DNA from: Pyrinomonadaceae bacterium
GTDB taxonomy: Bacteria; Acidobacteriota; Blastocatellia; Pyrinomonadales; Pyrinomonadaceae
Direction of reading: 5' to 3'
DNA length: 64,000 nt
Assembly: GCA_021228405.1 (NCBI GenBank)
Contig: JAJQRF010000001.1
Location: forward strand, 744,001 to 808,000
The position numbers and the translations under genes were made by a program. Below, one piece after another: positions 61,214 through 64,000 of this stretch. A model generated the notes under the pieces. That model did no database searches. It worked only from the letters and a program-made list of their open reading frames with translations, and was not told the DNA's origin. How positions within the stretch are numbered: position 1 is the stretch's first letter; every line of letters begins with the position of its first letter.

Positions 61214-61267
61214 CAATTTAGAGCTCCTTTCATCCGCCGAATGCCTTCTGCCATTCTCTCTTCCGTA
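61210..61267 (-). pseudogene. Remnant of the aminotransferase 3' end
   Basis: The minus strand reads TEERMAEGIRRMKGALNC-stop, nearly the same as the C-terminus of the intact aminotransferase (TEERMAEGIRRMKEALMI). 61227-61267 is identical over 41 bases to 62930-62970. It lies 5 bp from the stop codon of the SecB-like gene and marks the left edge of the inserted cassette. Confidence 0.85.
61227..61267. repeat. Left 41-bp direct repeat flanking the TAC cassette
   Basis: Identical to 62930-62970. A 10-bp word ATTTAGAGCT occurs on either side of it (61216-61225 and 61275-61284), the second within the end of the SecB-like gene. Confidence 0.9.
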
Positions 61268-61272
61268 AAGTT

Positions 61273-61758
61273 TTATTTAGAGCTTTTTTTTGTGCGAATA
61301 GCTTTGCCTTTTGTTATTTTTGAACTTTCACTCTTCTGGTGTTCTGTATCAACTTCGAGAAATGTCACCGAAGGAATCAAAACAGGTGCGAAAGGGCTTC
61401 TTCGCACAACCGTCACCAACATTTCCCTCGCCGTCGAGTAAAGAACTGCCGGACAATTGGTTTTTGCCAATAATTCAACCATATCTTTTGGATAATCTTT
61501 TGAAATAAAAAAGAACCCGACTAAAATCAAATGAAAAGTATAAGCTTCCGTAGCCTTATCTTTTGGTTTTAAGTCAAGTGTCAATTCACAACGCCAACGA
61601 CGTTTTCGCTTATCAATACATTCTACCGAAGTGGAAACCTCAACTCCGAGATTCTCTGATTTTTTTAACTCGGTCGGCTTTTCAGTAATTTCTTCGTTTA
61701 GTGAAAAAGAAACTTCTTTTAGGAAATACCCCTCAAGCTGTAGTGATGAAAATTGCAT
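61273..61758 (-). CDS. SecB-like chaperone of a toxin-antitoxin-chaperone system
   Basis: A 161-residue protein with the SecB fold pattern: an N-terminal strand LEGYFLKEVSFSL, a central strand pair with LTLDLKPKDK, and the SecB-typical C-terminal stretch KTNCPAVLYSTAREM...RRSPFAPVLIPSVTF. The C-terminus is basic (KAIRTKKSSK). It lies 6 bp after an MqsA-type antitoxin gene, so it is taken as the TAC chaperone that protects the antitoxin, rather than a general export SecB. AT-rich compared with the neighbouring kinase. Confidence 0.82.
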   Translation of the reverse strand: MQFSSLQLEGYFLKEVSFSLNEEITEKPTELKKSENLGVEVSTSVECIDKRKRRWRCELTLDLKPKDKATEAYTFHLILVGFFFISKDYPKDMVELLAKTNCPAVLYSTAREMLVTVVRRSPFAPVLIPSVTFLEVDTEHQKSESSKITKGKAIRTKKSSK

Positions 61759-61764
61759 ATAAAA

Positions 61765-62448
61765 TTAAGCAGCAAGAGCCAACTCTTGATTATTAACTCT
61801 TGCTGTTAAAGATCGAAACGGTTGACCGTTCTTTTCTTCAAATGGCATCAATTTTTCGATTTCACTTAAAAATGAACTAGATGAATCTAATTCAAAATCG
61901 AATGTTTCAGTCTTCCAATTTTGACTTTCTGCCAGATGCAGTGCTTTGGTAAAAGCCATATAAGCATAATTTTCAATCTGCTCAACATCAATAACTATCG
62001 CCATATTTTCTTCTGTCATCTCAGACAGATTTTCAGCAACTTTTTTCTCGATTCGCAATTCTTTCCTTTCTTCCAACAAACGAAGATAAAGATAGCGAAT
62101 GAGCAAATCGGACTGCGGACTAATGCGTTGAGAATCATTTTCCCAACGCGAATACACACTTTTGTCAGTGCGAAGAAGTTTTGCCCAATCCTGCGATTTA
62201 ATTCTTAAATTCTTTCTCAAAAACTTAATTTCTGCTCCGTTTAATAAGCTATTTTTACAGACGAGCGCAAATCCAATCGTATTGTGCAGTTTTAAAATTT
62301 TTGGAATAATTGGAATCTGTATTCCACATTCTATACAAGAAAACACCTCGATATTGTCCAAAAAGATATTTCCTAACCCTGATTCAATGTATTGATATTT
62401 CTGAGCTTTATTTACCGTCATTTCCTTCAGGCAGTTTTCACACTTCAT
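61765..62448 (-). CDS. MqsA-type antitoxin with zinc finger and HTH
   Basis: A 227-residue antitoxin. An N-terminal YgiT-type zinc finger has CENC at 3-6 and CIEC about 33 residues later. A Cro/XRE-type helix-turn-helix follows at about 78-115 (KSQDWAKLLRTDKSVYSRWEN). The long C-terminal region (about 130-227) ends in a hydrophobic-alanine tail (NNQELALAA) and may be the chaperone-dependent (ChAD) segment. The ribosome binding site AAAGGA overlaps the toxin stop. It probably binds the toxin and autoregulates through the palindrome upstream. Confidence 0.85.
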   Translation of the reverse strand: MKCENCLKEMTVNKAQKYQYIESGLGNIFLDNIEVFSCIECGIQIPIIPKILKLHNTIGFALVCKNSLLNGAEIKFLRKNLRIKSQDWAKLLRTDKSVYSRWENDSQRISPQSDLLIRYLYLRLLEERKELRIEKKVAENLSEMTEENMAIVIDVEQIENYAYMAFTKALHLAESQNWKTETFDFELDSSSSFLSEIEKLMPFEEKNGQPFRSLTARVNNQELALAA

Positions 62449-62454
62449 ATATAT

Positions 62455-62766
62455 TCATCCTTTTACGGTAATTATTTTTAATTGCCAGTCTTTCTCTATT
62501 ATTGCCGTGACGACTATTAATTTCTCGTCCTCAATATCGAACCCTTCAACATTACATACCCAATTTTGATGATCTTCACTCCATTCAGGGATGCGTTTTA
62601 TTTCACCGTTTTCCAAAACTTCAATTACATCTGTCATTGGCGCGTTTCTTAGGTTTCTTCGGTCACTGTTGTAGTGATAGGTCGGTATAATATCACCGTC
62701 ATTATGAAGAATCTTTAAAATTTTTTCTTTCGCATCTTCAGGGGAAAGTTGCGGAGGTTGTGCCAT
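62455..62766 (-). CDS. Putative toxin, MqsR/DUF4258-like
   Basis: A 103-residue protein with the sequence pattern of RelE-superfamily DUF4258/MqsR proteins: an N-terminal helix (DAKEKILKIL), RRNLRNAPMTDVIEVLENGEI in the centre, and a C-terminal strand pair LIVVTAIIEKDWQLKIITV. First gene of the three-gene operon, in toxin-antitoxin-chaperone order. The likely activity is mRNA cleavage, inferred from family and context; the fold match is distant. Confidence 0.7.
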   Translation of the reverse strand: MAQPPQLSPEDAKEKILKILHNDGDIIPTYHYNSDRRNLRNAPMTDVIEVLENGEIKRIPEWSEDHQNWVCNVEGFDIEDEKLIVVTAIIEKDWQLKIITVKG

Positions 62767-62833
62767 AAAATTATGTTTCCTTCAAATTTACGGTTTCTCT
62801 TCGAGCGGAAAGTCATAGCAGAATTTTCTCCCA

Positions 62834-62889
62834 ATTATAAATTGCCATTTGTGTAAACATATTGTCAACATAAATTGACAATATGTCAA
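62834..62889 (-). promoter_or_regulatory. Promoter and palindromic operator of the TAC operon
   Basis: An 11-bp perfect inverted repeat CATATTGTCAA / TTGACAATATG (62858-62868 / 62875-62885), plus a third TGTCAA at 62884-62889. On the minus strand two TTGACA boxes occur inside it and a TATAAT lies at 62839-62834. The array fits autoregulation by the antitoxin; the exact -35 is unclear. Confidence 0.65.
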
Positions 62890-62912
62890 CTTTTCTCCGA
62901 AAATCTTCTACT

Positions 62913-64000
62913 TTAAATCATCAAAGCTTCTTTCATCCGCCGAATGCCTTCTGCCATTCTCTCTTCCGTATTGCAGAATGAAACGCGCAAAAAGCCTTTT
63001 GCTTCCGAGCCGAATGCAACGCCGGGAACGGTGATAATGCGGTTTTGCAGGAATTTTTCGGCAATTTCGAGATCGTCGCCAAGCGGACGCACATCGACCA
63101 TCGTATAAAATGCGCCTTCGGGCGATGTGGCGTGTAAGCCTAATTCCGTTTTGAACAACCCGACCAGATATTCGCCGCGTTTTTTATAGATTTCACGCGC
63201 CTCGGCTTTCGCTTTTTCGGCTTCGTCCGTCCAACCCAAAAGCGCGGCTTTTTGTGAGATCGTCGAAGTGCAAACCGTCAAAAATCCGTGCAGTGTCAGG
63301 CACGCTTTGATAACTTCCGTCTGCGAGCTTGCCACCCAACCGACGCGCCAACCCGTCATACTCAAAGATTTCGACAACCCCGAAACGATCACGGTTCTAT
63401 CGTAAAACTCCGAAGCCGAATGCGGTTTTCCGGTAAAATAAAGATCGCTGTAAATTTCATCGGAGATCAGGTAAATTCCCGTATCCTTCAAAACTTCGGC
63501 AATCGCAGTTAAATCTTTTTCCGTAAATATTTTACCGGTCGGATTTGACGGTGAAATGACGACTGCAACTTTTGTTTTCGGCGTTATTTTCGATTTGAAT
63601 TCCTCAATATCGAACGCAAAACCCTTGTCAGCCGGAAGCCTGTAGAAAACAGGTTCGCCGCCGGAAAGCCTGACACAATTTTCATATGCCGGAAACGAAG
63701 GATTCGGAATCAAAACCTCGTCGCCTTCGTCAACTAGAGCCAGAAAAGCCGCCGTCATCGCTTCCTGTGAACCGACGGTCACGCAGACCTGATTCACGTT
63801 TAAATTCAAATGCGGATAACTCGCCGCGATCTTTTCGCGAAGAGCTAAAAGTCCGGCGTGAGAGGTGTAGCCGTTTTGTTCTTCGACGGCGACACGCGCC
63901 GCCTCTTCGCGCATAAATTGCGGTGTCGGGAGATCAGGTTCGCCGAGTCCGAAATTGATCGATTCGGGCAGAGCACGTTCAAAAATCTGCCGAATCAGCG
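62913..64000 (-). CDS. Class I/II pyridoxal-phosphate aminotransferase (5' end outside window)
   Basis: At least 362 residues of an aspartate/aromatic-type aminotransferase. The PLP lysine is in SGLSKSLSMTGWRVGW; other motifs are SPSNPTGKIF and GLGEPDLPTPQF at the incoming end. The reading frame continues past 64000, so the start is not seen. Its last ~19 codons lie in a 41-bp repeat shared with a remnant at 61.2 kb, so the present 3' end (KEALMI) was probably supplied by the inserted cassette. Substrate not determined. Confidence 0.9.
   Translation of the reverse strand, partial: LIRQIFERALPESINFGLGEPDLPTPQFMREEAARVAVEEQNGYTSHAGLLALREKIAASYPHLNLNVNQVCVTVGSQEAMTAAFLALVDEGDEVLIPNPSFPAYENCVRLSGGEPVFYRLPADKGFAFDIEEFKSKITPKTKVAVVISPSNPTGKIFTEKDLTAIAEVLKDTGIYLISDEIYSDLYFTGKPHSASEFYDRTVIVSGLSKSLSMTGWRVGWVASSQTEVIKACLTLHGFLTVCTSTISQKAALLGWTDEAEKAKAEAREIYKKRGEYLVGLFKTELGLHATSPEGAFYTMVDVRPLGDDLEIAEKFLQNRIITVPGVAFGSEAKGFLRVSFCNTEERMAEGIRRMKEALMI
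62930..62970. repeat. Right 41-bp direct repeat flanking the TAC cassette
   Basis: Lies within the 3' coding end of the intact aminotransferase and is identical to 61227-61267. The DNA between the two copies (61268-62929) holds only the TAC operon and its control region. Confidence 0.9.

Follow-up and report, generated by a model that had tools for sequence, protein, structure and literature searches.

How a SecB-family chaperone comes to be encoded behind a toxin-antitoxin pair in an acidobacterium, and what ties the antitoxin to it, are the questions raised by a compact locus of a Pyrinomonadaceae bacterium (Acidobacteriota) with a 5.72-Mb genome. Within the analyzed stretch of DNA, referred to here as the window (64 kb), the locus consists of three genes:

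62455..62766, minus strand, toxin gene of the DUF4258 family (103 aa; Pfam PF14076)
61765..62448, minus strand, antitoxin gene with an MqsA-family CxxC zinc finger and an XRE helix-turn-helix (227 aa)
61273..61758, minus strand, SecB-family chaperone gene (161 aa; Pfam PF02556)

The neighboring genes are separated by exactly 6 nt and follow the order toxin, antitoxin, SecB. A sequence-only reading of this DNA had described three open reading frames with this spacing and order, and the description is borne out by the coordinates and by an operon from another genus of the same family (L003, the same locus as L010), in which the DUF4258-MqsA-SecB order is the same. The products of the two operons share 38% (toxin), 33% (antitoxin) and 41% (SecB) identity. 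Since the order recurs in another genus with unrelated flanks, a chance arrangement is ruled out. Genome-wide, SecB and DUF4258 gave a single match each, both within the operon. Judged by its gene content, the operon is a toxin-antitoxin-chaperone (TAC) module.

The profile searches assign the three products as follows. The chaperone scores 46.2 bits against Pfam SecB (cut-off 26) and matches PD-T4-9_C (CmdC) in PADLOC with an E value of 2.3e-6. The toxin scores 33.8 bits against Pfam DUF4258 (cut-off 25), and the L010 toxin reaches 40 bits. The MqsR profile (PF15723), which had been named along with the other two in the sequence-only reading, gave no match for the toxin up to E = 10. The antitoxin matches NCBIfam TIGR03830 (MqsA family) over its full length with an E value of 2.3e-15 and 56.5 bits, which is below the cut-off of 61.8; its score against Pfam PF15731 (MqsA_antitoxin), 25.3 bits (E 1.8e-5), is also below the cut-off of 30. 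The CxxC zinc finger and the XRE helix-turn-helix are present in this order, and residues 1-127 match MqsA 3gn5_A in VIA with Z 5.7, 19% identity and an rmsd of 11.7. Solved structures searched by sequence gave nothing significant for the toxin or the antitoxin. The operon is not an MqsRAC in the strict sense because its toxin belongs to DUF4258 and not to MqsR. The earlier label "MqsRAC-like" therefore applies to the antitoxin and perhaps to the fold of the toxin, but not for the toxin family. The proposal of a TAC in an acidobacterium, with a SecB-family protein and a C-terminally extended MqsA-family antitoxin in one toxin-antitoxin operon, is supported by the profile matches and by the alignment of relatives.

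The C-terminal part of the antitoxin contains three nested features:

61765..61953, minus strand, C-terminal extension of the antitoxin, missing in 16 SecB-less relatives and present in L003
61765..61791, minus strand, codons for NQELALAA and the stop, identical to the tmRNA apart from synonymous changes and the stop
61761..61792, minus strand, tmRNA-like DNA stretch, 28 of 32 nt identical without gaps

The extension was delimited by aligning the antitoxins of the window (227 aa) and of L003 (220 aa) with the 16 SecB-less relatives, which are 160-197 aa long. It starts at about residue 165-172 and comprises about 55-60 residues, and not the approximately 95 residues assumed initially; the residues preceding it are common to SecB-less homologs. 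The closest of these, L045 and L029, align up to residues 173 and 164, respectively, and then end. In the predicted model the pLDDT of the extension is mostly below 50, a value that comes from a shallow alignment and is too thin a basis to call disorder. TAC antitoxins carry a chaperone-addiction segment (PMC5105189), and by analogy the extension of the window antitoxin fits this segment. In the tree of the antitoxin core, the SecB-linked forms do not constitute one clade, and the window antitoxin groups with the SecB-less L045 (95/92), the closest relative of its core (46% over 134 columns). The L045 gene (L045:1498-2031) immediately follows hsdS and encodes a lone MqsA-like protein (177 aa), with neither a toxin nor SecB.

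The antitoxin ends in RVNNQELALAA. Its last eight residues, NQELALAA, are identical to the tag of the host tmRNA, ANQELALAA, without the first alanine. The host tmRNA was identified with RF00023 (148 bits), and its tag was read by ARAGORN. The back-translated pattern NQELALAA* has one match in the window, where 0 are expected, and no match in viral contigs. The similarity is also present at the DNA level. Local alignment to the tmRNA gives a score of 22.0 for the window antitoxin and 24.0 for the antitoxin of L003, whereas pieces drawn at random from the window average 8.0 (sd 1.1). The 16 SecB-less antitoxins score 6.0-11.5 at their 3′ ends, and none of them shows tmRNA similarity above background. 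A tmRNA-like tail was found in only two antitoxins, those of the window and of L003. The sequence-only reading had overlooked this tail, the most notable feature of the operon.

The tmRNA of the L003 genome likewise encodes the tag ANQELALAA, and the L003 antitoxin ends in ANVNQELAPCA. Its score of 24.0 was obtained against the tmRNA of the window genome over 47 alignment columns; against its own tmRNA the score is 17.5. The match begins 9 nt upstream of the tag codons, and two compensating 1-nt indels turn LAA into PCA. Both antitoxin genes have GTT in place of the GCT of the tmRNA. As this change is common to both, a single capture is suggested, after which everything except the tail diverged over a long time. 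The antitoxin tail was apparently copied from the segment of a tmRNA gene that encodes the tag. The replacement of LAA by PCA in L003 should weaken a ClpX signal, so the role of the retained NQELA residues may instead be in contacts with SecB or an adaptor. In a literature search that covered few subscription papers, no report of a tmRNA tag in an antitoxin was found.

Shorter similarities to the tag were considered separately. A C-terminal -AA was rejected as a signature of TAC antitoxins, as 10 of the 16 SecB-less MqsA-like antitoxins (L018-L037, mostly accompanied by DUF4258-like toxins) also end in this way, compared with 3 of 209 long background open reading frames; the rows are related to one another, so the p-value of this comparison is a guide only. 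The frequency of such ends suggests that two-gene systems also carry protease signals at the antitoxin C-terminus. A general mimicry of the host tag by TAC antitoxins was likewise rejected. The xAA ends in L004, L006, L108 and L109 result from an overlap with the start of SecB and are not derived from a tmRNA, and the tail of L108 has almost no similarity to the tmRNA DNA (score 10.5). The overlap between the antitoxin stop and the SecB start is exactly 26 nt in all four operons (L108:1489-1514, L109:1402-1427, L004:1396-1421 and L006:1423-1448), whose antitoxins are unrelated. The SecB N-terminal codons for SPLQLE, or a similar sequence, read xAA-stop in the other frame, and the overlap is possibly a dual-coded degron. 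The antitoxin and SecB genes of the window and of L003 do not overlap and are separated by 6 and 7 nt, respectively. A Mann-Whitney comparison of tails with their own tags was set aside, since it mixes in the cases of SecB overlap. Because endings as short as -AA are common and can arise in other ways, only a long match with support at the DNA level was counted.

The operon is located on a stretch of low GC content:

61268..62924, inserted cassette of 1657 bp with 35.3% GC, containing the three genes and no integrase
61222..61267, left direct repeat, whose sequence reads as the 3′ end that an aminotransferase gene originally had (...EERMAEGIRRMKGALNC*)
62925..62970, right direct repeat, located in what is now the 3′ end of the aminotransferase gene (...EERMAEGIRRMKEALMI*)
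62854..62889, probable operator, a palindrome pair upstream of the toxin gene

The GC content of the cassette is the lowest of all 1657-bp stretches in the window (47.8% GC). The direct repeats are 46 bp long with 41 bp exact; they form the sole exact repeat of at least 30 bp in the 64-kb window and occur in two copies genome-wide. When the left repeat is joined to the interior of the gene, an aminotransferase ending in KGALNC* is obtained, whose stop overlaps the stop of a convergent kinase gene; one ortholog ends in KEALNK*. The right repeat supplies the present end, KEALMI*. Since the left-copy junction restores an ortholog-like end and the right copy is the present one, the insertion is placed in the 3′ end of the aminotransferase gene. 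Read from these junctions, the cassette is a recent insertion that duplicated approximately 41-46 bp. No genes other than the three, and thus no integrase, were found between the repeats. The exact empty site was not found in relatives, as different genes follow the aminotransferase in other genomes, and there was no second genome of the host genus among the relatives searched. The operon of L010 is not surrounded by direct repeats, so the insertion signature is not general. Relatives of the three proteins were not found in viral contigs, and plasmids and phages gave weak SecB or helix-turn-helix matches and nothing stronger.

The probable operator comprises a perfect palindrome TTGACA-N3-TGTCAA (62875-62889) and an imperfect copy (62854-62868). 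On the coding strand, 21 bp separate the TTGACA motifs, a spacing also found in front of the L010 operon, where the flanks are unrelated. The whole genome contains three TTGACAN3TGTCA sites. Such an operator would suit autorepression by the helix-turn-helix antitoxin.

The toxin had no match in PADLOC. As a DUF4258 protein without such a match, it does not have the identity of the ADP-ribosyltransferase CmdT. The AlphaFold model of the toxin, built from a two-sequence alignment, has a mean pLDDT of 76.8 and a helix-strand-helix-strands topology. Its best match in VIA is Escherichia coli MqsR (3hi2_D, Z 6.9, rmsd 3.3, 85 aligned residues), followed by a Salmonella toxin (7vd7_A, Z 5.9) and unrelated NTF2-like folds (Z about 5); these values are middling, and the model rests on an alignment of two rows. 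The residue H31 (window numbering) is kept in all 12 aligned toxins. In PMC11980606, the numerous and uncharacterized DUF4258 proteins are listed among the BECR-fold toxin families with an unknown target, and 17 fusions of DUF4258 with MqsA are given. The structural matches of the toxin agree with this listing. DUF4258 is present in 80 of 396 genomes of the phylum, usually without SecB. No published TAC with a DUF4258 toxin was found in the literature search; PMC11980606, the one paper found to mention both DUF4258 and SecB, does not place them together in one operon in the passages considered. New here is an unusual and well-supported antitoxin tail taken from a tmRNA gene, which is probably a degron.

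In the chaperone-addiction model, TAC antitoxins are unstable by design; to our knowledge, the origin of their degradation signals is hardly known. ClpXP is the usual reader of ssrA tags, and a LALAA ending is typical of ssrA degrons. Owing to this role of ssrA tags and to two TAC precedents, the captured tag is probably a ClpXP degron that is shielded by SecB. In Mycobacterium tuberculosis HigA1, a ClpX degron lies within the SecB-bound extension (PMC8165232), and CmdA is degraded by ClpP once the T4 capsid protein captures the SecB-like CmdC (PMC11618068). The toxin of the window probably stays inhibited only for as long as its dedicated chaperone covers the tag. The probable degradation signal of the antitoxin thus has an identifiable origin in a tmRNA gene, and the controls show no tmRNA similarity. 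We regard it as likely that the operon as a whole is best explained as a mobile TAC module in which the antitoxin carries the tmRNA-derived tail as a SecB-shielded degron.

We propose the following course of events. The DUF4258 protein would act as an RNase-type (BECR/RelE-MqsR-like) translation toxin, and the MqsA-like antitoxin would neutralize it and, by way of the TTGACA-N3-TGTCAA operator, repress the operon. With the ssrA tag of its own host at the C-terminus, the antitoxin would be destroyed by ClpXP unless the tag is hidden by SecB bound to the extension. Unfolded or phage proteins would draw SecB off, the antitoxin would be degraded, and the released toxin would halt translation, most likely as abortive anti-phage defense. 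A feedback is also possible: cleavage of mRNA by the toxin would increase tmRNA tagging, the tagged proteins would compete for the protease, and the antitoxin would be spared. The finding suggests a link between ribosome rescue and toxin release. That the degron was gained by capturing the tmRNA tag segment, and that the toxin-antitoxin pair was thereby wired into ribosome-rescue proteolysis with feedback through protease competition, has in our estimation somewhat more in its favor than against it.

The tail could be read in two other ways. The operon might be an ordinary TAC whose antitoxin C-terminus converged on -LALAA, the match to the host tag being a coincidence or the product of selection at the protein level only. 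The frequent -AA ends of the SecB-less MqsA-like antitoxins of the phylum and the xAA ends produced by overlap with the SecB start agree with such convergence, but eight residues and not two match the host's own tag. The DNA similarity, moreover, covers 32 nt in the window and 47 columns in L003 including non-tag nucleotides, while the 16 SecB-less relatives stay at background, and we consider convergence quite improbable. Somewhat less improbable, yet still unlikely, is a tail that serves as a decoy or as a SecB-binding peptide holding the antitoxin-chaperone complex together, with degradation proceeding through another site. This would account for the retention of NQELA in L003 after the loss of LAA. 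Against it, the window form retains the full LALAA ending of ssrA degrons, and in M. tuberculosis HigA1 the signals for SecB binding and for ClpX coincide (PMC8165232). The SecB-shielded degron derived from tmRNA is the preferred reading of the tail.

Other readings were also weighed for the chaperone and for the role of the cassette. SecB might be the general export chaperone of the organism, located in a toxin-antitoxin operon by chance: it is the sole SecB of the genome, and overexpressed TAC chaperones can replace E. coli SecB (PMC5105189). However, SecB is present in only 7 of 396 genomes of the phylum and 5 of 119 genomes of Pyrinomonadaceae, a housekeeping SecB did not appear among the phylum genomes sampled, and an antitoxin gene directly precedes SecB in every locus read. 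As the gene also arrived on a low-GC cassette, we find this explanation hardly credible. A dedicated TAC chaperone could still belong to a selfish addiction cassette or a stress module without an anti-phage role. The window copy is a lone 1.66-kb unit between direct repeats and no defense gene adjoins it in the window. On the other side, the L010 operon is flanked by a type IIG restriction-methylation enzyme on one side and a GmrSD type IV nuclease on the other, the solitary antitoxin homolog L045 adjoins hsdS, and another TAC, L011, is located beside ThsB. We regard the selfish or stress reading as a serious possibility that is nevertheless somewhat doubtful. Anti-phage defense is the most likely role, with about even chances or slightly better, based on these neighbors in relatives and on the action against phages that MqsRAC and CmdTAC have shown in tests (PMC9519451, PMC11618068).

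Of the known systems, MqsRAC of E. coli C496_10 (PMC9519451) and the MqsRA-SecB TAC of Vibrio cholerae RC385 (PMC5105189) have in common with the window operon the gene order, the extended MqsA-family antitoxin and the SecB-like chaperone. The shallow model of the window toxin is also closest to MqsR in the PDB matching. Both systems differ in the toxin, which is MqsR (PF15723) there and DUF4258 (PF14076) here, and their antitoxins do not end in the host tmRNA tag. The HigBAC system of M. tuberculosis (HigB1-HigA1-SecBTA) has toxin and antitoxin families other than those of the window, and its degron is described as ending in Val-Ala and not as a copy of the tmRNA tag. CmdTAC, or PD-T4-9 (PMC11618068), shares the SecB-like third component. 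Its toxin CmdT, however, is an mRNA ADP-ribosyltransferase and not a DUF4258 protein, and CmdA is described as two N-terminal helices with an unstructured tail and lacks the zinc finger and helix-turn-helix of the window antitoxin. The two-gene DUF4258-MqsA pairs match the window operon in both families and in having the toxin gene upstream, but they lack SecB, and their antitoxins of 160-197 aa have neither the extension nor tmRNA similarity.

The chaperones of the phylum accompany several types of toxin-antitoxin pairs. The genes preceding SecB are of the DUF4258-MqsA (window, L003), HigB/Gp49-HigA (L002, L006, L109 and L110), DUF2442 (L004, L108) and HicB (L005, L007) types. In the SecB tree, the two DUF4258-linked chaperones group together weakly (71/52). 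A Gp49-HigA-SecB operon was also found in Riflebacteria (L011:2200-5471). Its neighbors are ThsB TIR genes and the gene of an 8xMP membrane protein, and its antitoxin has the C-terminus VKWGQ, which does not resemble a degron. In L108:563-1968 and L004:678-1905, a DUF2442-type antitoxin is encoded directly before SecB, and in L108 it is preceded by a DUF4160 gene. The DUF4160-DUF2442-SecB operon of L108 looks like a further type of TAC.
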